25,586 nt of DNA from a virus. Every line of letters begins with the position of its first letter. The first letter of the stretch is position 1. The notes beneath the pieces are model-generated. The model searched no databases. It was not told the DNA's origin and was given only the letters and a program-made list of their open reading frames with translations. Below are positions 1 through 25,586 of this stretch, piece after piece. The DNA is taken from IMG/VR virus record IMGVR_UViG_3300009431_001185, positions 1-25,586 of that record; one strand, 5' to 3'. Both the position numbers and the translations under genes were made by a program.

Positions 1-119
1 CGCGCCTGCCGCATAAGTTGGTCCGCTACGCCGACCACGCCAGGCTGCTGCTGTCGCTCATCCTCGACAAGCGGTGCACCGGTCGACTGGACGCTGGCGA
101 CTGGGCGCGCTTGCAGTGG
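1..119. repeat. Terminal direct repeat, left copy (circular join)
   Basis: These 119 bases recur exactly at 25468-25586. One open frame continues from the right end into the left end, so the repeat is best explained as the overlap an assembler leaves when it closes a circle. Removing one copy gives a 25,467-bp unit. A tandem integrated array would look the same. Confidence 0.93.
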
Positions 120-1634: not shown

Positions 1635-3125
1635 ATGGCGAGCGTGAGCCATGAGAAGAAGACAGGACGGCGCACGGTGCAGTTTGTAGGCGGCGACGGC
1701 AAGCGTCGGTCGGTGCGACTGGGCAAGGTGAGCAAGCGACAGGCCGAGGCGGCCAAGCTCCGCATCGAGGACCTCGTCGCGTGCAAGAAGACGGGGACAG
1801 CGCCGAAGGGCACGACGGCGGAATGGCTGACGAGCGTGCCCGATGTGATTCGCAGACGGCTGGAGCGCGTGGGGCTTGTCGAGCCACAGGAGCGGCGCGA
1901 CTGCCCCACCGTGGCGGCATGGATACGTCAGTACATCCAAGGCCGAACCGACGTGAAGGCGAGGACGCGGACGAACATGGAGCAGGCCGAGAAGGACGCG
2001 GTGAAGTTCTTCGGCGGCAAGCGCCTTGACGAGATCACGCCCGGCGATGCCGAGGACTTCCGTATCTATCTCAAGGAACGGGGGCTGGCCGAAGGAACGC
2101 TCAGGCGGCACTGCAAGCGTGTCAAACAGTTCTTCATTGCCGCCGTGAAACGCAAGATCATTGCGGAGAACCCGTTCGCGGGCATCAGGTGCGGGGACTA
2201 TGCCAACCCGACCCGCTATCGCTTCGTCAGTCGTGAGGAAGCCCAGGCGGTCCTTGACGCGTGCCCCGATGCCGAGTGGCGTCTGATCTTCGCGCTGTGC
2301 CGCTACGGGGGCCTGCGTTGCCCGTCAGAGGTACTGCGACTCACATGGGCGGATATTGACTGGGAGCGTGACCGATTCACGGTCCACGCCAGCAAGACCG
2401 CTCACCACGCCGACGGCGGTATCCGTCAGGTGCCGATCTTCCCCGAACTGGCCCCCTACCTGTCCGAACGATTCGAGCAGGCCGAGCCGGGCGACGAGTA
2501 CGTCATCACGCGGTATCGAGGCGGCAGTGCGAATCTCCGCACGCAACTCCACCGCATCATCAGGCGCGCGGGACTGACGCCCTGGCCCAAGACATTTCAG
2601 AACCTGAGGTCCACCCGAGAGACCGAACTGACGGAGAGGTTTCCGGTGCACGTAGTCTGCAAGTGGATCGGGAACAGTCCAAAGGTGGCGAACAGGCACT
2701 ACCTCCAGACAACGGATGAGCACTTCGCGGAGGCGGTGCGGAAAGCGGTGCAGAATCCGGTGCAGTACTCGTCGGAATCGTCGCGCATGGAGCGGAAAAC
2801 GCAGAATCACGGCGCGGCCGATGGGCCAGAACTCGCTGGAATCACCCCGGAAAGCGAAAAAAAAGCAGTCCTCGGCGTGAACCGAGGACTGCTCCGACTA
2901 CCCCCAAGGGGAGTCGAACAGGGCGATATAAGGGGTTATGAGAACAGATACTTACAGAATCCCCCGAAATCAGACGGTGCAGAATCCGGTGCAGAATCCA
3001 CCGAAACGGGGCAATTGGACGCCGATCTTGCTTGCGTGGTCGATGCCTGGTCGACTCTGCCCGAGAACGTCAGGGCGGCGATCCTGAGCACAATCGAAGC
3101 ATACAGGCGCGAAGGAAACAGATGA
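1635..3125 (+). CDS. int: Tyrosine recombinase (main integrase, planctomycete type)
   Basis: This 496-aa site-specific recombinase probably integrates and excises the element. It has an arm-binding-like N-terminus, a core-binding domain (about residues 90-180) and a catalytic domain (about 197-375). Visible catalytic positions are Arg228 in GLRCPSE, Lys254 in HASK, Arg325 in QNLRSTRETEL and the nucleophile Tyr356 in RHYLQ. The usual His of the HxxR motif is Gln and the usual LGH is WIGNS; both changes are, to my knowledge, normal in planctomycete integrases. ATG 1635 follows the XRE stop by 4 bp; GTG 1632 is an alternative. About 140 residues follow the catalytic Tyr. That tail is read through a tRNA-like inverted repeat and a minus-strand terminator (2857-2919), which look like the attachment site, and ends in a helix with a W-x3-LPE-x-VRAAIL pattern. 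Confidence 0.93.
   Translation: MASVSHEKKTGRRTVQFVGGDGKRRSVRLGKVSKRQAEAAKLRIEDLVACKKTGTAPKGTTAEWLTSVPDVIRRRLERVGLVEPQERRDCPTVAAWIRQYIQGRTDVKARTRTNMEQAEKDAVKFFGGKRLDEITPGDAEDFRIYLKERGLAEGTLRRHCKRVKQFFIAAVKRKIIAENPFAGIRCGDYANPTRYRFVSREEAQAVLDACPDAEWRLIFALCRYGGLRCPSEVLRLTWADIDWERDRFTVHASKTAHHADGGIRQVPIFPELAPYLSERFEQAEPGDEYVITRYRGGSANLRTQLHRIIRRAGLTPWPKTFQNLRSTRETELTERFPVHVVCKWIGNSPKVANRHYLQTTDEHFAEAVRKAVQNPVQYSSESSRMERKTQNHGAADGPELAGITPESEKKAVLGVNRGLLRLPPRGVEQGDIRGYENRYLQNPPKSDGAESGAESTETGQLDADLACVVDAWSTLPENVRAAILSTIEAYRREGNR
2734..2767 (+). repeat. Direct-repeat cluster 1, CGGTGC(A/G)G(A/T)A, 12-bp phased
   Basis: Three copies start at 2734, 2746 and 2758, exactly 12 bp apart. They lie on the left of the candidate attachment core and may be arm-type binding sites for the integrase or excisionases. 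Confidence 0.6.
2857..2892 (-). terminator. Perfect intrinsic terminator on the minus strand, inside int
   Basis: Read on the minus strand, an 11-bp perfect stem (GCAGTCCTCGG paired with CCGAGGACTGC, loop 6) is followed by eight Ts. It lies within the integrase coding sequence and points against it, so it does not serve int. It is most easily understood as the terminator of a chromosomal gene, probably a tRNA, carried in the attachment site. Confidence 0.75.
2895..2919 (-). other. Candidate attP core: tRNA T-arm-like inverted repeat
   Basis: On the plus strand CGACT-A-CCCC-CAA-GGGG-AGTCG forms a nearly perfect inverted repeat with one bulged base. On the minus strand it reads GTTCGACTCCCC followed by TTGGGGGTA, like the T-loop and 3' end of a tRNA, and the terminator at 2857-2892 follows directly. 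The 5' half of a T-stem is absent, as expected when only the 3' end of a target tRNA is carried. Location inside the integrase gene and repeat clusters on both sides support attP. The target gene cannot be named from this window. Confidence 0.55.
2975..2996 (+). repeat. Direct-repeat cluster 2, same unit as 2734-2767
   Basis: Two copies of CGGTGCAGAA start at 2975 and 2987, again 12 bp apart. The 20-bp stretch at 2975-2994 is identical to 2746-2765 but is read in a different codon frame, so the repeat is kept at DNA level, not protein level. A lone copy occurs at 3425-3434. Confidence 0.6.
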
Positions 3126-6195: not shown

Positions 6196-6447
6196 TCATG
6201 CGTGACGGCCCAGCCGCTTGCTGGCGGGCGGCTCATGCCGATCTCGCACGACCCGCGCCCGATACTGCAACTGCGTCAACTCACCGCAACGGTCCTGCAA
6301 CAGCCCGATCAGCCGCTCAAGTCTCGGCATGTTCGCTTCGATGAAGTGGCAGTTGCCTTCGTCGATCGCCTGCTCCAACTTCGCGATGAAGGGCTCGCCG
6401 TCGTGCCAGGGGAGTCTTGTACGCATGGTGCTGATACGGTCCATCAT
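6196..6447 (-). CDS. Hypothetical small protein behind the zinc-ribbon membrane protein
   Basis: An 83-aa soluble, charged helical protein with no recognised domain. I placed the start at the first of two adjacent Met codons (6447), which follow TAGGAG closely; upstream codons overlap the preceding gene and look unreal. It lies 8 bp after the stop of the zinc-ribbon membrane protein and is surely co-transcribed with it. A central EANMPRLERLIGLLQDRCGELTQLQ segment could form an amphipathic or coiled-coil helix, suggesting it binds a protein partner. Confidence 0.6.
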   Translation of the reverse strand: MMDRISTMRTRLPWHDGEPFIAKLEQAIDEGNCHFIEANMPRLERLIGLLQDRCGELTQLQYRARVVRDRHEPPASKRLGRHA

Positions 6448-6455
6448 CCTGGCTC

Positions 6456-7706
6456 CTACAGGCTGCCGTAGTAGAAATACCGTCCGAAGTAAGACGGAGA
6501 AACCTCCGGCAGCTTCCGCGGCACGTCGGTGAGAACATGCAATGCTGCCTCCACCCACACTGACTCATAGAGCTTGTAGACCTGCATGGCGATCGCATCA
6601 GACTGCCTCTTGTACTCTCGCATGCTCATGACGCGCGCTCTATACCTCTTGTACAGTTTGCCATGTGCTTCATCCAAGGGTCTCCTGCGGTCGTATAGTT
6701 GTCGTGTCGCGGCAGTGGCGGCCCTGAGTGCCTGCCGGCTATAGCGCATGGTGACAGCCGGATCGGTGCTGCCCTTGCTGTAGTGGTGGACAATAACGCT
6801 GTTCAGGCCAGGCAAGGCAGGCCAGCAGCACGCGCGGCTCTCGCCCGGGAGGTACATCTTCACCATTTGGAGGATCACCGCAGGCATCGACAGGCGGTCG
6901 GTGTAGTTCGCCACAGTCTGGTCGTGGTACACGAGGGTGCCCGTGTCAGAGTCGTATTCGCAGGACACCCCCCCGAGCACTCGCTCCTCGGATACCAGAT
7001 GGTCCCATTCGAGGTATGCCCGAAAGAGTCCAAGAGAGTCCGTGCGGTCTGGCAAAGCCCCGCTCAGTTGCACCTCGTAGCCACCGCTCCGGGTGGCGCC
7101 GATCCATATGACCTCCATGTCCATGTTGAAATCGGCCCGATCGTAGAACAGCCAGGCCTTCAAGTGATCGCCCCCACGCTGCTTCATTCGTGCCACCAGC
7201 CATCGCCCCAGGAGTTCGAGTTTGGCCCGTGGCAATGGATCGATGAGGATCCACGCGTAGTAACCACCAGACGCTTGCTGAGGTCCCTTCTCGCGCAGGA
7301 ATTCCATCTTCGGAGGTGTGTACTGATCAGCGTTGTCCGTGCCGACCGAAGGTTGGGCGCCCCGAACGTCCTCGCTTTCCCGAGGTCTGTGAGCGGTGAA
7401 CGTGGCACGAGCAATCAGGAACACGCTTATGAAGATCAGCGTAGCCCCAAAGGCGACAGCAAGCACGCGGGGCCTCCGCCAAGCGGGAACAGCACCGGCA
7501 TCAGGCTCCTCGGCGGGGTCTGGGCTGCGCATCTCCCGCTCCCTGGCTTTCTGCTGGCGACGGGCTTCCTTGGCAGCCAGCTTCTGAATCTTGGACATGG
7601 GAACGTCACACAGGGCGCCGCAGCCAGGACACTGATCCTTGCCGCCGCCGACCGTGTCATCGCTTTCCAGCTTGGCCCCGCATCTCCAACACTTGTATCG
7701 GACCAT
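6456..7706 (-). CDS. Zinc-ribbon, single-span membrane protein
   Basis: A 416-aa protein. The N-terminus is a zinc ribbon with two knuckles, CWRCG and CPGCG, about 17 residues apart. A charged helical linker (KLAAKEARRQQKARERE) follows, then one membrane span (about residues 82-102, VLAVAFGATLIFISVFLI), then a 300-residue domain on the other side of the membrane. That domain has no family I recognise; it includes WILIDPLPRAKLELLGRW and a helical C-terminal third. Start ATG 7706 has AAAGGGTGAG just upstream. Zinc-ribbon plus span architecture is frequent in planctomycete proteins of unknown role. Its promoter is visible at 7763-7791. Confidence 0.82.
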   Translation of the reverse strand: MVRYKCWRCGAKLESDDTVGGGKDQCPGCGALCDVPMSKIQKLAAKEARRQQKAREREMRSPDPAEEPDAGAVPAWRRPRVLAVAFGATLIFISVFLIARATFTAHRPRESEDVRGAQPSVGTDNADQYTPPKMEFLREKGPQQASGGYYAWILIDPLPRAKLELLGRWLVARMKQRGGDHLKAWLFYDRADFNMDMEVIWIGATRSGGYEVQLSGALPDRTDSLGLFRAYLEWDHLVSEERVLGGVSCEYDSDTGTLVYHDQTVANYTDRLSMPAVILQMVKMYLPGESRACCWPALPGLNSVIVHHYSKGSTDPAVTMRYSRQALRAATAATRQLYDRRRPLDEAHGKLYKRYRARVMSMREYKRQSDAIAMQVYKLYESVWVEAALHVLTDVPRKLPEVSPSYFGRYFYYGSL

Positions 7707-8347: not shown

Positions 8348-9220
8348 CTACTCCCGCCACTCGACAGGGCCAACTGCAAGGGGAAGGGCTTTGAGTATAG
8401 CGCGGAGGGCATCGAGATCGCCCGAGGGTTCCACGCACTTGTACGTCTTCAGCAGATCCGGGATGTCCCCCTGGTTGCCGTTCTCGTCCTTGAACAGCAG
8501 AGGGATGATCCGAAACTGTTCCGGCCTCTCGCGGGCTTCGGCAATGGCGTAGTTGATCTCGGCCGCCAAGTACTTCTCGTCCTTGAAATCGGGCGTGATG
8601 AAGAAGACGGCCGCGCAGGATTCTTTCATCCCTTTCAGTAGAGCCCTCTCCAACTCTTGCCCAGCAGGCATCGCGTCCTCATCAAGCCACGGATCGAAGC
8701 CGAGGGCTCGCAGCGTCTCTGCAAACTCCCGGACGTCGGGCTTGTTCTTGCCCTTGTGGCTAAGGAATACCTTGCGGTGACGGCTCATGAGAACGCCCTC
8801 TCTGGTGATTGCGAATCGGACGAAGGTGTTCTCGCGGAATCGCGGGACTCGGACGACTCCCTCCATCTCCAGTCCGGCCGCGGAGATCGCCTCATCTTCG
8901 CGCTCGATATCGACATCAGGCTCAAGATCGTATTCCCCGCCCAACCAGTCGACCGAGTGGCGCTCATCAAAGAACGAACGCAGGAATTCCAGGTCCACCC
9001 TCCACATGCGTCCCCGACATGCCAGCCAGGGCTCGTCATTGTGTGCAAGGGCATCTTCGACGTGTGCCAAGGCGTCCTTCAACCGTACGCGACCAGACAG
9101 ATTGAACTCAATCGTCACGCTATCTTCGCCACGCATCCACCGGGGTGCGGACCTGCACGTCATGAGTCGCCACCGTGGGGAGGCGCCAATCCGACCGATG
9201 CTCTGTAGCAGGTAATGCAT
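8348..9220 (-). CDS. Protein with C-terminal TIR domain
   Basis: A 290-aa protein. A TIR domain occupies about residues 148-250: strand KVFLSHKGKNK, FAETLRALGFDPWLDE, the ERALLKGMKESCAAVFFITPDF segment, then YLAAEINYA whose Glu221 is the likely catalytic residue for NAD cleavage. The N-terminal 145 residues are an unrecognised, mostly beta-looking domain that could be the sensor (SVTIEFNLSGRVRLKDALAHVEDAL and an acidic EYDLEPDVDIERED stretch). ATG 9220 was chosen because upstream codons are proline-rich and run over the promoter. Bacterial TIR proteins are frequent NADase effectors of anti-phage systems. The trigger is unknown. The downstream thermonuclease gene and the divergent glycine-zipper gene may belong to the same module. 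Confidence 0.85.
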   Translation of the reverse strand: MHYLLQSIGRIGASPRWRLMTCRSAPRWMRGEDSVTIEFNLSGRVRLKDALAHVEDALAHNDEPWLACRGRMWRVDLEFLRSFFDERHSVDWLGGEYDLEPDVDIEREDEAISAAGLEMEGVVRVPRFRENTFVRFAITREGVLMSRHRKVFLSHKGKNKPDVREFAETLRALGFDPWLDEDAMPAGQELERALLKGMKESCAAVFFITPDFKDEKYLAAEINYAIAEARERPEQFRIIPLLFKDENGNQGDIPDLLKTYKCVEPSGDLDALRAILKALPLAVGPVEWRE

Positions 9221-9310
9221 GGTGTCGATCCGCCATTCGGCGTCTGCGGTGGCTGAGGTCGCTGTTGCCCTTTCCCCGGCTCTGATATGACCTGCCGGTA
9301 TCTTCCCACC

Positions 9311-9339
9311 ATTGTCCGGGGCGGGGCGGGGCGTGTCAA
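9311..9339 (-). promoter_or_regulatory. Promoter of the TIR gene
   Basis: TTGACA (9339-9334) and GACAAT (9316-9311) on the minus strand are 17 bp apart; the spacer is a run of CCCCG repeats. It lies back to back with the plus-strand promoter at 9347-9376. Confidence 0.7.
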
Positions 9340-9346
9340 CAGAGGG

Positions 9347-9376
9347 TTGTACTGGCCCCGATCCCAGCCGTACAAT
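9347..9376 (+). promoter_or_regulatory. Promoter of the glycine-zipper gene pair
   Basis: TTGTAC at 9347-9352 and TACAAT at 9371-9376 are separated by 18 bp. The start codon at 9445 follows after a leader of about 60 bases. Its -35 is only 7 bp from that of the divergent TIR promoter. Confidence 0.65.
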
Positions 9377-9444
9377 CCATGGGACACCGCTTGCGGCGGT
9401 CGTGGGCGGGAAGTCAAAATGATGCATTTCAGGGAGTCCGTGGG

Positions 9445-10127: not shown

Positions 10128-10733
10128 CTACTCATCGTAAAGCCCCGTCACACCGTCCTTCATCTCTTCGAACGAGACGTCGGCGTACATGTTGGCCGTG
10201 GTGGCCGGACTGGCGTGGCCGAGTTGCTTCTGGACCTGGCGCAGGTTCTTCGTCTTCCGAAGCAGGTGGGTGGCCAGCGTGTGCCGCGCGCAGTGGATCG
10301 ACAGTTCCTTCGGCAGATCGGCGTCGCGTATGGCGCGTTTCCATATCTGCTGAAGCCCTTGGGCCGTCAGGGGGCCGCGCTTGCCGACGAACAGGGCGTC
10401 GTCCTTTCCAGTGGGCTGGTCAACTGTCGCCTTCCACGCGATGAATTCGGCTAGATGCTCGGCGAACTCAGGGCCAATGGCCAACGTCTCGGTGGTCGGC
10501 TTCTTCCGCTTGAGTCGCTTGACCTTCAGACACGACCTCTTCAGGTCCACGTCGCCGACCTTCAGCGCGGCGATCTCGCTGACTCGCAGGCCGGTTGATA
10601 GAGCCGTATCGACGACGGACCAGGCCAACACGCCCCCGACGCGCCCGGCTTTCAGGTCTCGAACGGCCCTGTTCTCGGTGATCGCCCTGAGCAGTTTCAC
10701 CTCTCGCTCGTCCAGATATCGCTCTCGATCCAT
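10128..10733 (-). CDS. Catalytic-domain-only tyrosine recombinase
   Basis: A 201-aa protein consisting of the catalytic half of a tyrosine recombinase, without the N-terminal core-binding domain. All standard catalytic residues are visible: Arg in TGLRVSE, Lys in the KRLKRKKP hairpin, His and Arg in HCARHTLATHLL, His in QLGHASP and Tyr in ANMYADVS. That makes it an intact, not decayed, short form; such stand-alone proteins are, from memory, common in Planctomycetota. AAAGGGG precedes the ATG closely, and a promoter with consensus -10 lies at 10778-10806. It may act on a different site from the main integrase, help excision, or mark a second smaller mobile unit captured in this element. Confidence 0.9.
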   Translation of the reverse strand: MDRERYLDEREVKLLRAITENRAVRDLKAGRVGGVLAWSVVDTALSTGLRVSEIAALKVGDVDLKRSCLKVKRLKRKKPTTETLAIGPEFAEHLAEFIAWKATVDQPTGKDDALFVGKRGPLTAQGLQQIWKRAIRDADLPKELSIHCARHTLATHLLRKTKNLRQVQKQLGHASPATTANMYADVSFEEMKDGVTGLYDE

Positions 10734-13393: not shown

Positions 13394-13432
13394 CCTGGTC
13401 GCGCAAGGTAATTGTCACCGGGAACACCTGTT

Positions 13433-16222
13433 ATGCCCACGGGGACACCTGAATCTGAGGCCCGTCGGAACATTGACCGGCAGCTTGAGCTGTGCGGCTG
13501 GACGGTACAGGACCATTCGGCCATGAACATCTCGGCGGCCCTGGGCGTGGCCGTGCGGGAGTTTCCGCTCAAGACCGGCAGCGCCGACTACCTGCTCTAC
13601 GCCGACGGCAAGGCCATTGGCGTCGTCGAGGCCAAGCCCGAGGGCCACACCCTGAGAGGCGTGGAAATCCAGTCGGCCAAGTACGTCCAGGGGCTTCCCG
13701 AGGCCCTGCCGCACTACCACCGGCCCCTGCCGTTCGCCTACGAGTCCACCGGCGTCGTGACGCAGTTCACCGACGGCCTGGACCCCGATTTCCGCAGCCG
13801 CGAGGTCTTCACGTTCCACCGCCCCGAGGAACTAATCCGCCTGGCCACCCTCGACCGCCAGCTCCGCGCCGCCCTGCGCGACCTGCCCGACCTCGCCCCA
13901 GGCCGCCTGTGGCCCGTCCAGGCCGAGGCTATCACCAACCTCGAACGGTCCCTCGCCGCCAACCGCCCCCGGGCGCTCATTCAGATGGCCACCGGCTCCG
14001 GCAAGACCTACACCGCCTGCTCGCTGGCCTACCGCCTGGTCAAGTTCGCCAACGCCAAGCGCATCCTGTTCCTGGTGGACCGCAACAACCTCGGTCGCCA
14101 GACGCTCAACGAGTTCCAGCAGTACGCCAGCCCGCACACCAGCTACAAGTTCACCGAGGAGTTCAACGTCCAGCACCTGCGGCGCAACGCCATCGACACC
14201 GCCAGCCGCGTCTGCATCACGACCATCCAGCGGCTGTACTCGATGCTCAAGGGCGAGGACGAGTTCGAGGCCGACAACGAGGAAGGCTCGATGTTCGAGT
14301 CCGGCTCGCCGCTTGTCTCCGAGCCCCTGCCGGTGGTCTACAACCCGGCCATCCCCATCGAGACGTTCGACTTCATCATCGTGGACGAGTGCCACCGAAG
14401 CATCTACAACGTCTGGCGGCAGGTCCTGGACTACTTCGACGCGTTCCTGATCGGCCTGACCGCCACGCCGACGGCCCAGACCATCGGCTTCTTCGACCAG
14501 AACCTCGTCCAGGACTACTCCCACGAGAAGGCCGTCGCCGACGGCGTCAACGTGGGCTACGACGTGTACACCATCGAGACGAGGGTCACCAAGGAAGGGG
14601 CCGCCCTGAAGAAGACCCCCGGCTTCTTCGTCCCGCACCGCGACCGCCGCACGCGCCAGAAGCGCTACCACGAACTCGACGACGACCTGACCTACACTGC
14701 CAACCAACTCGACCGCGACGTGGTCAACGCGTCACAGCTCCGCCTGGTCGTTCGGACGTTCCGCGACAAGCTGCGTACGGAGATATTCCCCGGTCGCACG
14801 GAGGTCCCCAAGACGCTCGTCTTCGCCAAGATCGACCTGCACGCCGACGACATCGTCAAGGTCATGCGGGAGGAGTTCGGCAAGGGCAACGACTTCTGCC
14901 AGAAGATCACCTCCAAGACGACCGGCAAGAAGCCCGAGGTCCTGCTCAACGAGTTCCGCAACTCGTACAACCCGCGCATCGCCGTCACGGTGGACATGAT
15001 CGCCACCGGCACGGACGTCAAGCCGCTGGAGTGCCTGCTGTTCATGCGGAACATCAACTCGGCGGCCTACTTCGAGCAGATGAAGGGCCGGGGCAGCCGT
15101 ATCATCAACCCCGACGACCTCCAGTCCGTCACGCCCGACGCGAAGCACAAGACGCACTTCGTCATCGTCGACGCCGTCGGCGTCTGCATGAAGGACAAGA
15201 CGCACTCCAAGCCGCTGGACCGCAAGCCGTCAGTCTCGTTCGAGAAGGTCCTCCAGACCGTCGCCCAGGGCGTGGTCCATCCCGACGTGGTTTCCACGCT
15301 GGCGGCGCGCCTGGCCCGCCTGGGCCGCGAGATCACGCCCGACCACGCCGAGCAGATCGCCTCCGCCGCAGGGGGCAGGTCCCTGGAGGTTCTCGCCGCC
15401 GACCTGCTGACCAGTATCGACCCCGACGCCAACGCCGCCCGCGCCGTCGAGGCCCTGTCCCTGCCCGAGGGCGCCGAGCCCACCGACGAGCAGATCAGCG
15501 CCGCCGAGGCCGAGGCCATGGCCGAAGCCCTCAGGCCGTTCCACGACCCGAAGCTGCGGGAACTGGTCCTCAACATCAGGGCCTCCCTGGAGCAGATCAT
15601 CGACGAGGTCACGCAAGACAGCCTCCTGTCCAGCGGGTTCGACGCGGCGGCCACCGACAAGGCCCGGTCCGTCCTGGCCGACTTCCGGCAGTTCATCGAG
15701 GACAACCGGGACGAGATCGAGGCCCTCCAGATACTCTACAGCCGCCCGCACCGCGCGGGCCTGCGCTACCGCCACGTCAGGGACCTCGCCGCCAAGCTCG
15801 ACAGGCCGCCGTTCTTCGTCAAGCCCAAGGACCCCGCCAGCGTCCTGCGGCTGTGGCAGGCGTTCGAGGCCGTCGAGCCCGAGAAGGTCACCGGCCAGGC
15901 CAGCAAGATCGCCGACCTCGTCGCCATGGTGCGCCACGCCATCGACCCCGACCAGGCCCTGGTGGCCCGCGACATCACCGTGAACCAGCGATACGACCAA
16001 TGGCTGGCCGACCAGCAGGCCGCCGGCGTGACCTTCACGCCCGAGCAGCGCCTGTGGCTCGACGCCATTCGCGACCACATTGCCAGCAGCCTGGCCATAG
16101 AAACCGACGACTTCGACACGGTCCCCTTCAGCCAGATGGGGGGCCTCGGCAAGGCCTACCAGTTGTTCGGCGACGACCTGCCCACCATTCTTGAAGACCT
16201 CAACAGGAGCCTGGCGGCATGA
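13433..16222 (+). CDS. hsdR: Type I restriction enzyme, motor and nuclease subunit
   Basis: A 929-aa HsdR subunit, which moves DNA using ATP and cuts it far from the recognition site in complex with HsdM and HsdS. The N-terminal PD-(D/E)xK nuclease is visible: Asp in SADYLLYADG and EAK at residues 66-68. The SF2 helicase follows: Walker A MATGSGKT (about 184), DECH box DECHRS (about 318), TATPT (about 342), VDMIATGTDVKPLECLLFM and the arginine motif EQMKGRGSR (about 550). The C-terminal third is the helical EcoEI-type assembly domain. I chose ATG 13433; TTG 13412 is in frame upstream. Third codon positions are almost all G or C, unlike the RT and cyclase genes. It overlaps hsdS by 4 bp (ATGA). 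Confidence 0.97.
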   Translation: MPTGTPESEARRNIDRQLELCGWTVQDHSAMNISAALGVAVREFPLKTGSADYLLYADGKAIGVVEAKPEGHTLRGVEIQSAKYVQGLPEALPHYHRPLPFAYESTGVVTQFTDGLDPDFRSREVFTFHRPEELIRLATLDRQLRAALRDLPDLAPGRLWPVQAEAITNLERSLAANRPRALIQMATGSGKTYTACSLAYRLVKFANAKRILFLVDRNNLGRQTLNEFQQYASPHTSYKFTEEFNVQHLRRNAIDTASRVCITTIQRLYSMLKGEDEFEADNEEGSMFESGSPLVSEPLPVVYNPAIPIETFDFIIVDECHRSIYNVWRQVLDYFDAFLIGLTATPTAQTIGFFDQNLVQDYSHEKAVADGVNVGYDVYTIETRVTKEGAALKKTPGFFVPHRDRRTRQKRYHELDDDLTYTANQLDRDVVNASQLRLVVRTFRDKLRTEIFPGRTEVPKTLVFAKIDLHADDIVKVMREEFGKGNDFCQKITSKTTGKKPEVLLNEFRNSYNPRIAVTVDMIATGTDVKPLECLLFMRNINSAAYFEQMKGRGSRIINPDDLQSVTPDAKHKTHFVIVDAVGVCMKDKTHSKPLDRKPSVSFEKVLQTVAQGVVHPDVVSTLAARLARLGREITPDHAEQIASAAGGRSLEVLAADLLTSIDPDANAARAVEALSLPEGAEPTDEQISAAEAEAMAEALRPFHDPKLRELVLNIRASLEQIIDEVTQDSLLSSGFDAAATDKARSVLADFRQFIEDNRDEIEALQILYSRPHRAGLRYRHVRDLAAKLDRPPFFVKPKDPASVLRLWQAFEAVEPEKVTGQASKIADLVAMVRHAIDPDQALVARDITVNQRYDQWLADQQAAGVTFTPEQRLWLDAIRDHIASSLAIETDDFDTVPFSQMGGLGKAYQLFGDDLPTILEDLNRSLAA

Positions 16223-17760
16223 ACGGACTTCCAGCAGGTTGGTCATGGGTACGTCTGAAGGAACTCGCCTCGGAGATGTGCCTCGGGAAGATGTTGGACA
16301 AGAAGAAGAACCAGGGAACGCTCAAACCCTACTTGCGGAACGTTAATGTGCGATGGTCTTCCTTTGATCTGACGGACCTGAAGGAAATGCGATTCAAGCC
16401 GGGCGAGGGAGAGCGCTACGGCCTGCTTCCAGGCGACTTGGTTATCTGTGAGGGCGGAGAGCCGGGCCGCGCTGCCGTGTGGGCCGGCCAGTCAGAAGAC
16501 GCAAGGATACAGAAGGCACTTCATCGAGTTCGCTTTGACCCAGCGGTCTACTTGCCACACTTCGCCATGTACTACCTGTACTTTGCTACGTCCACAGACC
16601 AATTGGCCTCATACTACACTGGCACCACGATCAAGCATCTCACAGGGAAGTCGCTGGCCGAAGTACCTTTCCCTCATTGCCCTCCTGCCGAGCAGCGTCG
16701 CATCGTCGCCAAGATCGAGGAACTGTTCTCGGACCTGGACGCGGGCGTGGCCGCGCTGGAGCGGGCCAAGGCGAACCTGAAGCGGTACCGCGCGGCGGTC
16801 CTGAAGGCCGCCGTGGAGGGCAAGCTGACCGCCCAGTGGCGCGCCGAGCATCCCGACGTTGAACCCGCCGACCAACTGCTCGCCCGCATCCTGGCCGAAC
16901 GCCGCCAGAAGTGGCAGCAGGACCAACTCGCCAAGTACGAAGCCAAGGGCAAGAAACCGCCGAAGAACTGGAAAGACAAGTACAAGCCCCCCGCCGAACC
17001 CGACACCACCAACCTGCCCGACCTGCCCGAAGGATGGTGCTGGGCAAGCGTGGGACAGATTGGCAACGTTCAACTGGGCCGACAGAGATCGCCCAAGAAT
17101 CGCTCGAAGGATTACCCAACGCAATATATCCGTGCGGCAAACATAACAGAATCAGGGCTCGATCTGAGCGATGTTCTGGATATGGAATTCCGCCCTGAGG
17201 AAGCTGAACGATATCGGCTACGCGCAGGAGATATCGTGCTTTCGGAGGCTTCCGGCAGTCCCGATCAGGTAGGAAAACCTGCCCTCTGGCGAGGGGAAAT
17301 GGAGTTGTGCTGCTTCCAGAATACGGTGATCAGACTGCGTCCGTGCTTGGCTGCGAGTGATTACATCTTGACCGTGTTTCTCCACTACTACACGAATAGC
17401 GTGTTTGCGGCAGTGGCGGGTGGGGTTGGGATTAACCACCTGAGTGCAGCGAGGTTCTCGGCGATGCCCTTCCCGTTGGCTCCCCAAGAAGAGCAATCTG
17501 TGATCGTAGCTGAGACTGAAGAGACACTGTCGCGAAATCAAGCTGGGGATGTCGCAATCACGAAGAGCCTTGTTCGCGCCACTCGCCTCCGCCAAGCCAT
17601 CCTGAAACGTGCCTTCGAGGGCAAGCTCGTCCCGCAGGACCCTACCGACGAACCGGCCAGCGTCCTGCTGGACCGCATCAAGGCCGAACGTGACGCCGCC
17701 GCAGCAAGAGCCAAGTCCGCGAAGAAGAAGGCCCGGAAGAGAAAGGGGAAGAAGCGGTGA
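16219..17760 (+). CDS. hsdS: Type I restriction specificity subunit
   Basis: A 513-aa HsdS subunit, which reads the split DNA target for restriction and methylation. Two target-recognition domains are visible, each opening with the typical motif: LPAGWSWVRLKEL (residue 4) and LPEGWCWASVGQI (about 271). Each ends with a PLAPQEEQ/PPAEQRRIV element and a long conserved helix (IEELFSDLDAGVAALERAKANLKRYR and its second counterpart). The inter-domain spacer is high in GC, whereas both recognition domains are lower, as expected for segments that swap by recombination. A very basic tail (KSAKKKARKRKGKKR) ends the protein. The start overlaps hsdR by 4 bp. Unusually, hsdS is followed by a reverse transcriptase rather than hsdM. 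Confidence 0.96.
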   Translation: MNGLPAGWSWVRLKELASEMCLGKMLDKKKNQGTLKPYLRNVNVRWSSFDLTDLKEMRFKPGEGERYGLLPGDLVICEGGEPGRAAVWAGQSEDARIQKALHRVRFDPAVYLPHFAMYYLYFATSTDQLASYYTGTTIKHLTGKSLAEVPFPHCPPAEQRRIVAKIEELFSDLDAGVAALERAKANLKRYRAAVLKAAVEGKLTAQWRAEHPDVEPADQLLARILAERRQKWQQDQLAKYEAKGKKPPKNWKDKYKPPAEPDTTNLPDLPEGWCWASVGQIGNVQLGRQRSPKNRSKDYPTQYIRAANITESGLDLSDVLDMEFRPEEAERYRLRAGDIVLSEASGSPDQVGKPALWRGEMELCCFQNTVIRLRPCLAASDYILTVFLHYYTNSVFAAVAGGVGINHLSAARFSAMPFPLAPQEEQSVIVAETEETLSRNQAGDVAITKSLVRATRLRQAILKRAFEGKLVPQDPTDEPASVLLDRIKAERDAAAARAKSAKKKARKRKGKKR

Positions 17761-17870
17761 AGGCAGACCTCCACGACATCAAGAGGGTTTTCGGTTTGGG
17801 TTGGCGCCTGTTTCCTCCGTTCACTCTGCGACTCCTCACTTGGCAAGATGCATTTGCGATAGGTTAACAC
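17761..17870 (+). other. Intergenic gap before the reverse transcriptase
   Basis: These 110 bases contain no gene and no convincing promoter. Some defence reverse transcriptases and retrons use a structured RNA encoded immediately upstream, so this gap, like 19446-19629, is a place to look for one. I see no strong stem by eye. Confidence 0.3.
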
Positions 17871-19445
17871 ATGGATACCGTTACACCTGAGGCCCTTGAC
17901 TGGTCACTGGCCCATATTGAGAGATTCGGCGACACGGACTTCTTTCCGGTCCCATTTGAGTTCAAAGCCATCCGACATTGCTGGACGTGGGTAAGAGACT
18001 ATCTGGCCGGAACTGATATGGACAGTTACCAACCGCATGTTCCCCGTCACATTGCCGTTCCTAAGCCAACCGGCGATTTCCGAATAGCTGCCCAGTTGGC
18101 CCCCCTTGACTCGCTACTCTATACCGCCTTGATATATGAGGGGGCATCGCAGGTAGAGGAAGCCAGAGTTGCAGATGGCCTGTCGGTTGCTTGCTCTTAC
18201 CGAATCGAGTTGGACGCCAAGGGGTCATTCTTTGCCCCTCGGCAGGGTTGGTCCAGTTTCCATCAACAATCAGAGCTGTTGGTCGATTCGGGGGAATACG
18301 AGTATGTTCTCGTGGCTGATATCACCGATTTCTACAACCAGGCATCACAGCATCGCATCGAGAATGCCCTGGAACTAGCGGGTATCTCGACGGCGCGTGC
18401 CAAGAACATTGAGCGATTCTTGTCCTCTGTTGCGGCCAAGCAATCCCGAGGGCTCCCCGTGGGGCCAGCGGCGTCAATTATCCTCGCTGAAGCCTGCCTG
18501 AACGATGTAGATTCTTTCCTCATGAGGCGTGGCCTTAGACACACGCGGTATGTGGATGACTTTCGGATATTCTGCTCCAGTCGGGGCGAAGCGCTTCAGG
18601 TACTACATGATCTTACATGTTACCTCTATACATCGCACCGTCTCGCACTGAATGCCGGGAAGACCCGAATTCTCCCGGTAGAAGAGTTCCGAGAAGAGGA
18701 ACTGCTGGACCCTGAGGAGGAGGTGGAACGTGGTCGAATGGACCAATTGCTACTACTTGTTCAGGAGATTCTTGCGGAGTTTGGCGGCTACGGCGCATTT
18801 GAAGAACTCGATGAGGATGCTGTCAATGAGCTTGTTGATGACGCACGCCAGATAGGAGCACTCCGAGATAGTCTGGTCGTGATGTTCTCGGACTGTCTCT
18901 CTACCAATCCCCTGCATCTTGGGATAGCACGACATCTGCTACGCCGGGCGACCCAGCTACGCACGAACGTCCTCACAAGGATGGTATTCGACAATCTGGC
19001 GAAGTTGGGACCAGTATTTCGCGATGTGGCCATCTACCTTTGTGCAACCAAGAGCGCATCTGTTGAGCGAGGAGATACACTTGTTGACTTCCTCCTGAAC
19101 AGTGATTGCGGGAAGCTACCGTTCTGTCGGCTATGGGGTGTTGAGATTCTGAATCGCATAGTGGGGATTGTCTCCTCGGAGTTGGCATGGCAGGTGGCGG
19201 AGCAGTCACCTGGAGGAGGGGACTTCAGGTCACTGGCATTGGTCGCGACCAGTCACAAGTGTGTTGACTGGGTTCGCGAACAGAAAGAGAGTTGGTCCCA
19301 TCATGGGCCATGGGATAAGCGAGGAATCGTCTGGGCCTCACAGGTGTTGCCGAGAGATGAGCGAGGACCTTGGCTGTCTGTTGTTGAGGGAACGGGGGAC
19401 CTACTGGACAAGGCAGTTGCGCAGTATGTTCGAGGCATTACATAG
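17871..19445 (+). CDS. Reverse transcriptase of the defence (Abi/UG) type inside the hsd operon
   Basis: A 524-aa protein. Residues about 55-260 form a reverse-transcriptase domain: HIAVPKPTGDFRIAAQLAPLDSLLY (fingers), motif A VADITDFYNQ with Asp150, motif B GLPVGPAASIILAE (194-207) and motif C RYVDDFRIF with YVDD at 227-230. All catalytic aspartates are present. The C-terminal half (about 290-524) is helical without a known enzymatic motif, like the helical repeat domains of Abi and defence-associated RTs. No maturase or group II intron features were seen. ATG 17871 follows a weak AGG. Base use is lower in GC than in hsdR and hsdM, so it was probably acquired separately. It lies between hsdS and hsdM with a cyclase-fold gene, so a back-up abortive-infection role is likely but unproven. 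Confidence 0.93.
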   Translation: MDTVTPEALDWSLAHIERFGDTDFFPVPFEFKAIRHCWTWVRDYLAGTDMDSYQPHVPRHIAVPKPTGDFRIAAQLAPLDSLLYTALIYEGASQVEEARVADGLSVACSYRIELDAKGSFFAPRQGWSSFHQQSELLVDSGEYEYVLVADITDFYNQASQHRIENALELAGISTARAKNIERFLSSVAAKQSRGLPVGPAASIILAEACLNDVDSFLMRRGLRHTRYVDDFRIFCSSRGEALQVLHDLTCYLYTSHRLALNAGKTRILPVEEFREEELLDPEEEVERGRMDQLLLLVQEILAEFGGYGAFEELDEDAVNELVDDARQIGALRDSLVVMFSDCLSTNPLHLGIARHLLRRATQLRTNVLTRMVFDNLAKLGPVFRDVAIYLCATKSASVERGDTLVDFLLNSDCGKLPFCRLWGVEILNRIVGIVSSELAWQVAEQSPGGGDFRSLALVATSHKCVDWVREQKESWSHHGPWDKRGIVWASQVLPRDERGPWLSVVEGTGDLLDKAVAQYVRGIT

Positions 19446-19494
19446 AGTAACGAGACAGCATTCAGAGAAGCAATGGCATGATGGACGCATGCGA

Positions 19495-19587
19495 ATGAGT
19501 AACGACACACACCGAACGGCCAATAGGGCTCGGAGTTCTGTATGGCCACATCCGGCTAGTGAAGGCGAACAGGAGGCAGAGCATTGA
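19495..19587 (+). pseudogene. Possible decayed copy of the hsdM start
   Basis: A 30-codon frame begins MSNDTHRTANRARSS. The true hsdM at 20532 begins MSNDTQQIVNKAWSY. Over the first 48 bases the two agree at about 33 positions, and many differences are at third codon positions. After about 16 codons the likeness ends. It stands between the RT and the cyclase-fold gene, so it could be what is left of an hsdM that once followed the RT directly. Chance similarity, or a real short peptide, is possible. Confidence 0.5.
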
Positions 19588-19629
19588 TGCGAAGGCAGAA
19601 AGCCTGGAAAATTGGGAGATCGCAGACAG

Positions 19630-20535
19630 ATGCCCGATAGAGAGGACTTGGACATCAGGTACCACGCCGTGTGCGTGCTGGACATCCTCGGTCAGAAGCA
19701 TGGCCTCGAAGGCTGGTCAGACGTCCCAGAGAATCTCGAACCCACACCTTCCTATCTCCACGCCTTGCAAAGGACAGTTGGTGTCGTCGTGAATCTCCGC
19801 GAGATGTTCAAGAACTTCTTCGCAACGTGTGACCGGGGATGGATATCCGGTGATGATTACGCACGGATGGATGCACAGCAACGCGAAGTCTATGAGCGCT
19901 ACAGGGACTGCTTGCTGAGGACTCAGCAGTTCTCCGATACTTTCATCTTCTACTCACCTCTGATGAACTCATCGGGTGAGCTGAGTGCTACCCCTCTCTA
20001 TAGAATTCTGGCCGCATGTTGCATGGCCATGTCCTCCTCCCTCGCCTCGAAGATCGCCGTACGCGGTGGAGTATGCATTGGAATAGGCGCTGAAGTAGCC
20101 CCACACAGCTTGTATGGACCGGCGCTAGCCAAAGCCCACTGGCTGGAGAACAAGATCGCCAAGTACCCGCGCATCGTCGTATCGCCGGAAGTGCCGTCCT
20201 TCTTGCGGCAGATGCGCACAAATCGCGATGAATGTCCTTCAGAGATCATGGCTTTGCTGGCCGAAGTATGTGAGTCCATGCTGTGCATGGACACCGACAA
20301 CTGGCCCATTGTGGACTTCATCGGCAAGGGATACCAACAGATCGTGGGGGGTGAGAACGCCAAGGCGATAGAAGGAGTATCGAAAGCGTATTCATTCGTG
20401 ACGTCCGAACGCAGGAGATTCCACCAAGACCAGGGAACCGGACTGGAGGAACGGTACGGTAGACTTCAGGACTACATGCAGTCGCGACTGCATCTGTGGG
20501 GGCTTAGCCCAGATGGTGAGAAGAACGAAGAATGA
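19630..20535 (+). CDS. Cyclase-fold (PycC-like) protein paired with the reverse transcriptase
   Basis: A 301-aa protein whose first 190 residues look like a class III nucleotidyl cyclase fold. Asp18 in CVLDILGQ and Asp103 in QQFSDTFIFY match the two metal-binding aspartates. AVRGGVCIGIG (about 144), LYGPALAKAHWLENKIA (about 161) and YPRIVVSPE follow, the order seen in the cyclases of Pycsar defence. The C-terminal 110 residues are helical and unassigned. I chose ATG 19630 with GGGAG upstream. The stop overlaps the hsdM start by 4 bp, so it is part of the restriction operon. It may make a cyclic nucleotide or have lost activity and only bind one. No Pycsar effector gene is adjacent. The fold assignment is from motif reading alone. 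Confidence 0.68.
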   Translation: MPDREDLDIRYHAVCVLDILGQKHGLEGWSDVPENLEPTPSYLHALQRTVGVVVNLREMFKNFFATCDRGWISGDDYARMDAQQREVYERYRDCLLRTQQFSDTFIFYSPLMNSSGELSATPLYRILAACCMAMSSSLASKIAVRGGVCIGIGAEVAPHSLYGPALAKAHWLENKIAKYPRIVVSPEVPSFLRQMRTNRDECPSEIMALLAEVCESMLCMDTDNWPIVDFIGKGYQQIVGGENAKAIEGVSKAYSFVTSERRRFHQDQGTGLEERYGRLQDYMQSRLHLWGLSPDGEKNEE

Positions 20536-22019
20536 GCAACGACACGCAGCAAATCGTCAACAAGGCCTGGAGCTACGCACACGTCCTGCGGGATGACGGG
20601 CTGTCGTACATGGCCTACACGGAGCAGATCACGTTCCTGCTGTTCCTGAAGATGGCCGACGAGCAGACCAGGCCGCCGTACAACCGCGAGCCGATCGTGC
20701 CGCCGGAACTCGGCTGGCCGAGCCTGTTGGCCAAGGACGGGGACGACCTTGAAGTGCATTACCGGCACGTCCTGGAGGAACTGGGCCGCCAGCCGGGGAT
20801 GCTGGGCGAGATATTCAAGAAGGCCCGGCAGGAGATACAGAACCCCGCGACGCTTCGCCGACTGATCGTGGACCTGATCGACGCCGAGCAATGGTCGTCG
20901 ATGCAGGCGGACGTCAAGGGCGACATCTACGAGGGTCTGCTGGCCAAGAGCGCCGCTGAGAGCCCCAAGGGGGCGGGCCAGTACTTCACACCGCGCGAGC
21001 TGATCAAGGGCATCGTGGACGTGATGCAGCCGGGGCCGGGCGACACGGTGTGCGACCCTGCGTGCGGGACCGGCGGATTCCTGCTGGCCGCACACGACTA
21101 CGTGACGCGCCACCACGGCAGGGAACTCGACCCGGACCAGAAGAAGCACCTGCGACAGGCGTTCGCGCGGGGCTGGGAACTGGTGCCCGCCACGGCGCGG
21201 CTGTGCATCATGAACGTTTTCTTGCACGGCATCAATGCTGTCCCCTGCCCGGTGACCTCCGGGCTGGACAGCCTGGCCAGCGACCCCGGCGAGCGGTTCA
21301 GCATGGTCCTGACCAATCCGCCGTTCGGCAAGAAGAGCAGCATCTCCATCGTCAACGAGGAAGGCCAGTTGGAGAAGGCCGACCACGCCTACGAGCGGCA
21401 GGACTTCTGGGTGGCGACGAAGAACAAGCAGCTCAACTTCCTCCAGCATGTCAAGACACTGCTGAAGATCAACGGCAGGTGCGCTATCGTCGTGCCGGAC
21501 AACGTCCTGTTCGAGGGCGGGGCGGGCGAGACGGTGCGGAAGAACCTGCTCAAGCAGTTCGACGTCCACACGCTGCTGCGCCTGCCGACGGGTATCTTCT
21601 ACGCCCAGGGCGTCAAGGCCAACGTGCTGTTCTTCGACGCCAAGCCCGCACAGGAAGCGGCCTGGACGAAGACGCTGTGGGTCTACGACCTGCGGACGAA
21701 CATGCACTTCACGCAGAAGACCAACCCGCTGAAGCGGGCCGACCTGGACGAGTTCGTCGCGTGCTTCAACCCCGACAACCGGCACGAGCGCGAGGCGACG
21801 TGGAGCGAGGAGACGCCCGAGGGCCGCTGGCGCGGGTTCGACTACGCCGACCTGGTCAAGCGCGACAAGGCCAACCTGGACATCTTCTGGCTGAAGGACA
21901 AGAGCCTCGAAGACGCCGAGGACCTGCCCGAGCCGGACGTCCTGGCCCAGGAGATCGCCGACGACCTGCAAACGGCATTAGACCAGTTCACCGCCATCGC
22001 GGAGGGGCTGAAGGAGTAG
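20532..22019 (+). CDS. hsdM: Type I restriction-modification DNA methyltransferase
   Basis: A 495-aa N6-adenine methyltransferase that with HsdS protects host DNA. The N-terminal helical HsdM domain (about residues 8-130) includes TEQITFLLFLKMADEQ. The catalytic domain has the S-adenosylmethionine motif DPACGTGGFLLAA (175) and active-site NPPFG (262), with GQYFTPRELI before them and GRCAIVVPDNVLFEGG after. Length is normal. Its start overlaps the cyclase-fold stop (ATGA), so methylase translation depends on reading through the inserted pair; that could make methylase level sensitive to the cassette. High GC and third-position bias match hsdR. No terminator is evident after it. Confidence 0.97.
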   Translation: MSNDTQQIVNKAWSYAHVLRDDGLSYMAYTEQITFLLFLKMADEQTRPPYNREPIVPPELGWPSLLAKDGDDLEVHYRHVLEELGRQPGMLGEIFKKARQEIQNPATLRRLIVDLIDAEQWSSMQADVKGDIYEGLLAKSAAESPKGAGQYFTPRELIKGIVDVMQPGPGDTVCDPACGTGGFLLAAHDYVTRHHGRELDPDQKKHLRQAFARGWELVPATARLCIMNVFLHGINAVPCPVTSGLDSLASDPGERFSMVLTNPPFGKKSSISIVNEEGQLEKADHAYERQDFWVATKNKQLNFLQHVKTLLKINGRCAIVVPDNVLFEGGAGETVRKNLLKQFDVHTLLRLPTGIFYAQGVKANVLFFDAKPAQEAAWTKTLWVYDLRTNMHFTQKTNPLKRADLDEFVACFNPDNRHEREATWSEETPEGRWRGFDYADLVKRDKANLDIFWLKDKSLEDAEDLPEPDVLAQEIADDLQTALDQFTAIAEGLKE

Positions 22020-23093: not shown

Positions 23094-23290
23094 ATATTCA
23101 TTTATGCAGTCGGTTTAGCATATCGCATAGAATTCTCCTCGCTCCCTAAGTCATTTGCCGACAAATCCTTTCACTTCGTCTCACGTCCATTCATCTGTTC
23201 AGCCAGCATATCTCCTTCTACTTGTGAATACGCGCAACACGGTTGCGTGACCAAGGACTCTCGGTTGTGCAAATACAAGGAGTACGACAC
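23094..23290. other. AT-richer non-coding gap before the excisionase genes
   Basis: About 200 bp without a gene and lower in GC than the neighbours. It holds two short palindromes, ATTTG-CCGA-CAAAT (23153-23166) and CGCAAC-ACG-GTTGCG (23233-23247). No clear sigma70 promoter is seen, though one must exist for the downstream genes. It could carry the regulatory region or origin of the core module; nothing stronger is visible. Confidence 0.4.
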
Positions 23291-23542
23291 ATGCGGAACG
23301 CTGGAAAAGCAGAAACAAACGGTCAGTCATTGATCATGGCGCTTTCGGCTGCCGAGCTAGCGCAGGCCTTGGGCGTATCTCTCCGGCATGTCCATCGAAT
23401 GAACACGGCGGGCAAGATACCTCGCCCGATTCGGCTGTCCCGATCAGTACGCTGGCCGATCCAAGAAATCCAAGCCTGGCTTGCTGCGGGCGCGCCCGAC
23501 CGCCGGACGTGGGAAGCGATAAAGGAGGTGCCTTGTGACTGA
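23291..23542 (+). CDS. Excisionase/AlpA-like helix-turn-helix protein
   Basis: An 83-aa DNA-binding protein of the MerR-like excisionase (AlpA/HTH_17) group. LSAAELAQALGVSLRHVHRMNTAGKIPRPIRLSRSVRWPIQEIQAWLAAG contains the helix-turn-helix and wing, with the usual RW-x(2-4)-I-x-AWL ending. AAGGAG lies 8 bases before ATG 23291. The stop codon lies within the start of the next gene (GTG 23535). Proteins like this direct excision or activate an integrase promoter. It probably steers the main integrase, perhaps at the 12-bp-phased repeats near 2734-2996. Confidence 0.85.
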   Translation: MRNAGKAETNGQSLIMALSAAELAQALGVSLRHVHRMNTAGKIPRPIRLSRSVRWPIQEIQAWLAAGAPDRRTWEAIKEVPCD

Positions 23543-23852
23543 ACGGACAACGACACCTCCGCTGCTTCTGACAGCTCGTGAGGCGGCAAAGGCTCTGGCG
23601 ATCTGCGAGCGGACCTTGTTTGCCTTGACGAAGAGCGGCGAGATTCCAGTCGTGCGTATTCGGCGAGCCGTGCGCTACGACCCTAACGATCTCCAGACGT
23701 TCATCGCGAAACGGAAGGCGGAGGGAACAGAGAACACCTCGGACAGCGCGAAGGCCCGACCGCCAAACCAGAACGCCGCCGATGCACCGCTTCGACTGAA
23801 CCAACGTCACGGAAAGGACACCACACATGAGCAACGGACACCCGCAAATTGA
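23535..23852 (+). CDS. Second excisionase-family helix-turn-helix protein
   Basis: A 105-aa protein. LLTAREAAKALAICERTLFALTKSGEIPVVRIRRAVRYDPNDLQTFIAKRK is a complete excisionase-family (MerR-like) DNA-binding domain. A hydrophilic, probably flexible tail of about 40 residues follows. GTG 23535 is supported by a strong AAAGGAGGTG, and overlaps the previous gene by 8 bp. The 3' end overlaps the ParB-like gene by 26 bp. Two different excisionase-type proteins in a row suggest a two-part control of excision or of replication. Confidence 0.87.
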   Translation: MTERTTTPPLLLTAREAAKALAICERTLFALTKSGEIPVVRIRRAVRYDPNDLQTFIAKRKAEGTENTSDSAKARPPNQNAADAPLRLNQRHGKDTTHEQRTPAN

Positions 23853-25401: not shown

Positions 25402-25586
25402 TTGCTGCTGACTCGCCGGAGATTGCGGTCTACATCCCGGAGAACGAGAGGCTACGCGGCCTGCTGTCGCGCCTGCCGCATAAGTTGGTCCGCTACGCCG
25501 ACCACGCCAGGCTGCTGCTGTCGCTCATCCTCGACAAGCGGTGCACCGGTCGACTGGACGCTGGCGACTGGGCGCGCTTGCAGTGG
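25398..25586 (+). CDS. Family-A DNA polymerase-like protein (5' part; continues at 1-1277)
   Basis: These are the first 63 codons of the polymerase-like protein, starting MIAADSPEIAVYIPENERLRG. The ATG is preceded by GGGGAGG at 25384-25390 and overlaps the tiny ORF stop. In the circle the frame continues directly at base 1 of the window (the last 119 bases repeat it), giving 448 aa in all. The polymerase-like motifs lie in the other part. Confidence 0.75.
   Translation, partial: MIAADSPEIAVYIPENERLRGLLSRLPHKLVRYADHARLLLSLILDKRCTGRLDAGDWARLQW
25468..25586. repeat. Terminal direct repeat, right copy (circular join)
   Basis: Identical to bases 1-119. The length of 119 equals a common de Bruijn k-mer size, which supports an assembler-made overlap of a circular molecule. 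Confidence 0.93.

Follow-up and report, generated by a model that had tools for sequence, protein, structure and literature searches.

How does a tyrosine integrase gene come to contain, on its opposite strand, what looks like the 3' end of a tRNA gene followed by a terminator, and what becomes of the enzyme if the element integrates at this site? The question is raised by an IMG/VR record of 25,586 nt, which was analysed over its full length and is termed the window hereafter. The window has a perfect 119-bp direct repeat at both ends (Table 1) and is therefore a circular molecule of 25,467 bp; a tandem array is less likely.

A tRNA 3' end and a terminator within the integrase gene

The gene product combines a catalytic domain (Pfam E 1.5e-11 for PF00589) with the conserved arginines, the histidine and the nucleophilic tyrosine, R228, R325, H355 and Y356 being invariant in the alignment of the integrase family, and its predicted fold matches those of lambda Int, Tn1549 Int and XerA. 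Read 5' to 3' on the minus strand, the site consists of GTTCGACTCCCCTTGGGGGTA (2919-2899), GTCGGA, a stem of 11 perfect pairs formed by GCAGTCCTCGG and CCGAGGACTGC (2892-2882 and 2875-2865), and eight Ts, i.e. the A-run 2857-2864 of the plus strand. The minus-strand RNA fold has -40 kcal/mol and z = -6.25, none of 200 shuffles folding as well, and a terminator scan recovered the hairpin independently. A sequence-only reading of this DNA had pointed out the T-loop-like stretch, the perfect stem with its eight Ts and their translation as integrase, and all of this was confirmed: core and terminator lie wholly within the ORF 1635-3125 (+), where the core corresponds to codons 422-429 and is preceded by the catalytic Tyr356.

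The same reading had proposed a tRNA-like 3' end with a counterpart in planctomycete genomes. Such a counterpart exists: of 392 Planctomycetota genomes sampled, 5 contain the 21 nt of 2899-2919 without a mismatch, in every case as the 3' terminus of a tRNA-Glu(ctc) gene, at a chance expectation of about 1e-8 for one given 21-mer in 25.6 kb. The likeness does not extend to an entire T-arm: the window has only the 3' part of it, which is what an attP would contain, and no tRNA was called by ARAGORN when run on the window. A tmRNA or another tRNA as target had been an early idea that was dropped when the match to tRNA-Glu genes was found.

The stretch of protein behind the core comprises 67-68 residues, fewer than the about 75 first estimated. 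If the integrase were instead read up to the core and on into antisense tRNA-Glu, the predicted integrated form would have 433 aa and end in ...LPPRGVEPLSPD, with ...PPRGVEPLSPD directly before the stop. Relatives that are integrated at tRNA-Glu genes have similar ends, namely GLEPLSSG, GVEPLSSG and GIEPLSHG.

Table 1. Positions of features in the window and characteristics of four integrated relatives
Feature	Position	Strand	Basis or details
Direct terminal repeat, left copy	1..119	.	identical to 25468-25586
Tyrosine integrase gene, 496 aa in the circular form	1635..3125	+	PF00589 at residues 197-362, PF13102 at 93-182
Arm-like repeat GTGCAGAATCCGGTGCAG, body side of core, read VQNPVQ	2748..2765	.	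18/18; putative arm site
Intrinsic terminator, 11-bp stem, 8 Ts	2857..2892	-	coding on + strand; fold and terminator scan
Predicted attP core, 21 nt, equal to tRNA-Glu(ctc) 3' end	2899..2919	-	identical to genomic tRNA-Glu genes
Tail predicted to be made only in the circular form, 67-68 residues	2920..3122	+	orphan homologues after far-end core in integrated elements
Second arm-like repeat GTGCAGAATCCGGTGCAG, tail side, read GAESGA in another frame	2977..2994	.	18/18; putative arm site
Conserved two-helix C-terminal module, residues 457-493, DADLACVVDAWSTLPENVRAAIL...	3003..3113	+	AlphaFold2, profile matches, dN/dS
AlpA/HTH_17-like protein, candidate excisionase	23243..23542	+	PHROG 66 and PF12728; putative role
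Second excisionase-like HTH protein	23535..23852	+	PHROG 66; putative role
Direct terminal repeat, right copy	25468..25586	.	identical to 1-119
Lacipirellula limnantheis tRNA-Lys element			core 21 nt, 19 kb
Lacipirellula limnantheis tRNA-Arg element			core 26 nt, 45 kb
Lacipirellula limnantheis tRNA-Met element			core 14 nt, 6 kb
Adhaeretor mobilis tRNA-Val element			core 22 nt, 17 kb

Integrated relatives carry the tail at the far end

Relatives were collected by a species-genome scan that yielded 80 loci, nearly all titled planctomycetes and many of them metagenome-assembled, with integrases 45-68% identical to that of the window and a usable integrase ORF in 77 cases. This ORF ends inside an antisense tRNA gene in 61 of the 77 and within 30 nt of one in three more, whereas of 565 further ORFs from these loci, all with 300 codons or more, just one ends in an antisense tRNA. 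The 64 tRNA-associated integrases, near misses included, are distributed over 12 tRNA types, with a median overlap of 41 nt. For the other 13, no tRNA is present at or within 30 nt of the end, and several of these genes look truncated or decayed.

A second copy of the core was found upstream of the integrase, at the far end, in 14 elements, the two copies being 5-45 kb apart. Ten of these elements lie within the fetched loci (L021, L031, L038, L046, L053, L065, L074, L080, L090 and L097), and four come from two chromosomes that were searched as a whole, those of Lacipirellula limnantheis and Adhaeretor mobilis (Table 1). The closed-chromosome elements include cores of 21-26 nt; cores of 14 nt, taken alone, are weak evidence of a junction. 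Together, the identity of the window's core with the 3' end of tRNA-Glu and the cores at both ends of 14 relatives identify these as tRNA-targeting elements.

At the junctions of the integrated relatives the core covers the tRNA from its T-loop to its 3' end; the severed tail is located at the other end of the element, where an open orphan frame directly follows the second core, with a length of 64-79 codons in eight of the elements. The frame of the orphan tail is that of the integrase at the core in 13 of 14 elements. Three T-loop frames are in use (GLEP, DSNP and RTRT type) and a tail matches each of them, i.e. frame agreement is not built in. If only tails located by the protein profile are counted, the frames agree in 11 of 12 cases, which has a probability of about 5e-5 at a one-in-three chance. 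The core of L065, for which the longest common string had given a wrong one, was set by hand and shows the same frame, and L091 was left out of the comparison for its degenerate core. The exception is L031, in which the integrase stops just short of the core and its frame differs from that of the tail. Thus, the layout of the integrated relatives supports what had been proposed from the window alone, namely that integration cuts the tail from the integrase and joins the truncated gene to chromosomal DNA.

Some loci show other arrangements. In two tandem-like ones (L031 1-1458 and L053 2-1147) the frame of the left-hand integrase stays open across the core and continues into the tail belonging to the element on the right; as judged from the reading frame, this restores the predicted long form in the integrated state. 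In L027 (11245-11448) a tail follows the core beside the integrase in another frame, which may be due to decay of a circular form, to a frameshift or to faulty sequencing. A pairing of integrase and tail over 4 Mb and on opposite strands of one closed genome (L120/L105) was rejected, the tail probably belonging to a second element elsewhere.

The tail is a conserved helical module

Most tails share the pattern ..(D/E)L..(I/V)(I/V).AW..L......A.(I/L/V).. with the window's DADLACVVDAWSTLPENVRAAIL, so that the W motif, which had merely looked conserved in the window, recurs as a conserved W-x2/3-L tail in the relatives. A profile built from 11 tails detected 1-7 copies per genome in six out of six named genomes and, in a sample of the phylum, at least one copy in at least 54 of 294 genomes at E <= 1e-5. 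Among the matches listed, the open frame of 37 of 49 tail copies contains an antisense T-loop ahead of the tail, as compared to 4.6% of shuffles. The tail matched none of the Pfam and NCBIfam models. Tails also occur in unintegrated viral contigs: L163/L164 encode a 504-aa integrase with tail and W motif, and in L016 (2157-3536) and L170 (7442-8914) the integrase passes through the T-loop core into ALQKAL..., a basic tail of a different kind, the W module thus being common, not universal. These relatives were obtained from alignment-based scans, a single-protein scan of viral contigs having returned one distant relative only, and the phage and plasmid collections that were searched for the integrase held no close relative.

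For structure prediction tail fragments were left out of the alignment, as they were misaligned when added to the full-length sequences. AlphaFold2 assigns mostly high confidence to residues 1-372 and values below 50 to residues 373-457. Residues 457-493 are predicted confidently as two paired helices, the bulk of them at a pLDDT of about 80-93. The attP DNA would therefore be located within a linker, and integration would remove the helical hairpin.

The swap might be real and the tail nevertheless be passive read-through without any function, as an attP that overlaps the integrase gene needs some stop codon in the circle. Tails do vary among the elements, and those of L080, L097, L016 and L170 are devoid of the W motif. 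Yet the module with the W motif is found repeatedly in elements that are divergent and insert at different tRNA genes, it is predicted to fold into a confident helical hairpin, and in four homologous Adhaeretor tails dN is 0.06-0.28 vs a dS of 0.34 to saturation, these being rough values as the sequences are short. Since a protein motif would not be expected to be kept in a passive tail, we regard this explanation as unlikely.

Even less probable, in our view, is that the tail is a remnant or a separate gene that is expressed alone from the far end of the integrated element, with the fused form in the circle as a by-product. Such a gene would agree with the intactness of the orphan tails in chromosomes and with those profile matches that lack a recognisable core (12 of 49 among the matches listed). 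However, in six of eight elements an in-frame stop precedes the core by only 0-31 codons, which leaves no space for a conserved start; of the other two, L053 has another integrase upstream and L097 merely an open frame. Moreover, the frame of the tail is matched to that of the integrase.

The attachment site as coding sequence

The 18-bp repeats on both sides of the core (Table 1) have counterparts in the relatives. With up to 5 mismatches, the integrase-side motif is present in 53 of 64 relatives but in only 3 of 127 control windows; it lies 116-148 nt from the tRNA end, in clusters at about 118, 130 and 140 nt. The tail-side motif is found 45 or 57-61 nt past the core. As the repeat is kept as DNA in two reading frames and the spacings are about one helical turn apart, this pattern points to the repeats being candidate arm sites of the integrase. 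Terminator-like hairpins behind the tRNA and within the integrase coding sequence are likewise more frequent in the relatives (29/64) than in control stretches (21/255). As part of the best explanation of these data, the whole attP, i.e. arm, tRNA terminator, core and arm (about 250 bp), is very probably encoded within the disordered linker on the C-terminal side of the integrase. That the T-loop-like stretch and the terminator are instead a product of chance or a decayed tRNA fragment is very improbable in view of the exact 21-nt match to tRNA-Glu, the equal placement in 61 of 77 relatives and the symmetrical arm repeats, although neither an integrated copy of the window's own element nor a host was found.

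Proposed mechanism

We consider it highly likely that the site is the attP of a planctomycete integrative element, that it is located inside the element's own tyrosine integrase gene, and that integration swaps the tail of the enzyme. The elements combine what an integration-dependent exchange of the C-terminus would produce, i.e. an attP in the integrase gene, integrated integrases with tRNA-antisense ends, and an in-frame tail at the far end. The attP layout, the deduced tail swap, the matching of the frames and the conservation of the tail all follow from the comparison of genomes. In the circle, the gene would yield a 496-residue integrase with the conserved pair of helices at its C-terminus. 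Recombination at the 3' terminus of tRNA-Glu would restore the tRNA and supply the element's terminator, which would end the transcript of the restored tRNA. At the same time, the ~68-residue tail, comprising predicted linker and helical hairpin, would be replaced by a few residues from antisense tRNA and be stranded at the far end with no start of its own, and excision would rebuild the long form. By analogy with phage Mx8, the long form may be the integration-proficient enzyme, and the short form may be weaker or depend on an excisionase, candidates being the genes at 23243 and 23535, so that integration would turn down its own enzyme.

The chances seem about even to us that this scheme applies to Planctomycetota as a whole, with the two-helix tail as a circle-only control domain that renders the long integrase integration-competent and is swapped away by integration, leaving the chromosomal enzyme inert or restricted to excision until the circle re-forms. 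If true, a self-limiting recombination switch would be contained within one gene, and in tandem copies (L031, L053) one integrase would be lent the tail of its neighbour.

Comparison with known systems

The closest parallel is provided by Mx8, in which 112 residues of the integrase C-terminus are replaced by 13 residues and the prophage enzyme is reported to be less active (Tojo 1996; Magrini 1999), as stated in a review (PMC4701971); another review mentions a changed specificity of the prophage integrase (PMC6070905). In our analysis the Mx8 integrase gene (L196) encodes first a terminator-like hairpin and then a T-loop core (STGLEPV), both antisense and at about 6390-6480, followed by a long tail. 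Hence, in both systems the attP is located in the 3' portion of the gene for a tyrosine integrase, and its hairpin and antisense T-loop core are coding. In contrast, the Mx8 integrase is only 22% identical to that of the window in an alignment of 209 aa (single comparison, E 0.003), and its C-terminus is not matched by the tail profile, i.e. the tails are unrelated. With this identity and the unmatched tail, the window's enzyme does not belong to the Mx8 integrase family by descent. Furthermore, Mx8 is one phage, whereas the planctomycete family occurs across a phylum and targets 12 tRNA types.

In archaeal SSV-type ('suicidal') integrases the attP also lies within the integrase gene and integration, at a tRNA gene, splits it (PMC8371274). 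There, however, the split inactivates the enzyme, its N-terminal part and its catalytic domain being separated, whereas the integrated planctomycete gene keeps all catalytic residues and only the tail is exchanged. As Tyr356 precedes the core and integrated genes contain the full catalytic domain, the planctomycete enzymes are not suicidal integrases of the SSV type.

In mycobacteriophage BPs the protein altered by integration is the repressor and not the integrase. The likeness to its integration-dependent immunity, as outlined in the literature (PMC4557955), lies in an attachment site within a coding sequence, by which integration alters a protein. Streptococcal ICEs in rumA have their att site within the integrase gene, and the C-termini of excised and integrated forms differ (PMC4701971), but these enzymes belong to the serine integrases and do not target a tRNA gene. 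According to reviews, att sites inside integrase genes are found in very few elements (PMC4701971), and recombinases that disrupt their own gene are exclusively archaeal (PMC8371274). Our searches of the open literature, with subscription papers mostly outside their scope, returned no description of an integrase tail swap in planctomycetes.

In bacteria, an integration-driven swap of the integrase tail is thus otherwise known mainly from Mx8. Whereas the layout of Mx8 type is already known, the planctomycete family with its conserved tail appears to be new, and in this large family an att site within the integrase gene is the usual state, with a conserved domain joined to the enzyme only in the circle. 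The family may thus offer many natural test pairs for the control of integrase activity and direction. In planctomycete genomes, the tail swap would also account for the odd 'GLEPxxSG' C-termini of integrases and for short ORFs consisting of an orphan tail, and the arrangement of core and tail may serve as an exact means of locating both ends of an island.

Other genes of the element

The record is classed as viral, yet the ORFs of the window that were tested included no gene for a capsid, a large terminase or any other structural protein, and the element may be an integrative plasmid-like element or a satellite. Type I restriction-modification genes (hsdR, hsdS and hsdM) occupy 13412-22019, and a TIR-domain protein is encoded at 8348-9427 (-); the element therefore looks like a carrier of defence genes. 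Between hsdS and hsdM the restriction region holds an ORF of unknown function (19612-20535) and a reverse transcriptase gene (17871-19445), whose product is nearest to Drt4-like antiviral reverse transcriptases, with a score under the family cut-off. A second, shorter tyrosine recombinase gene, XerC-like and encoding 201 aa, is located at 10128-10733 (-).
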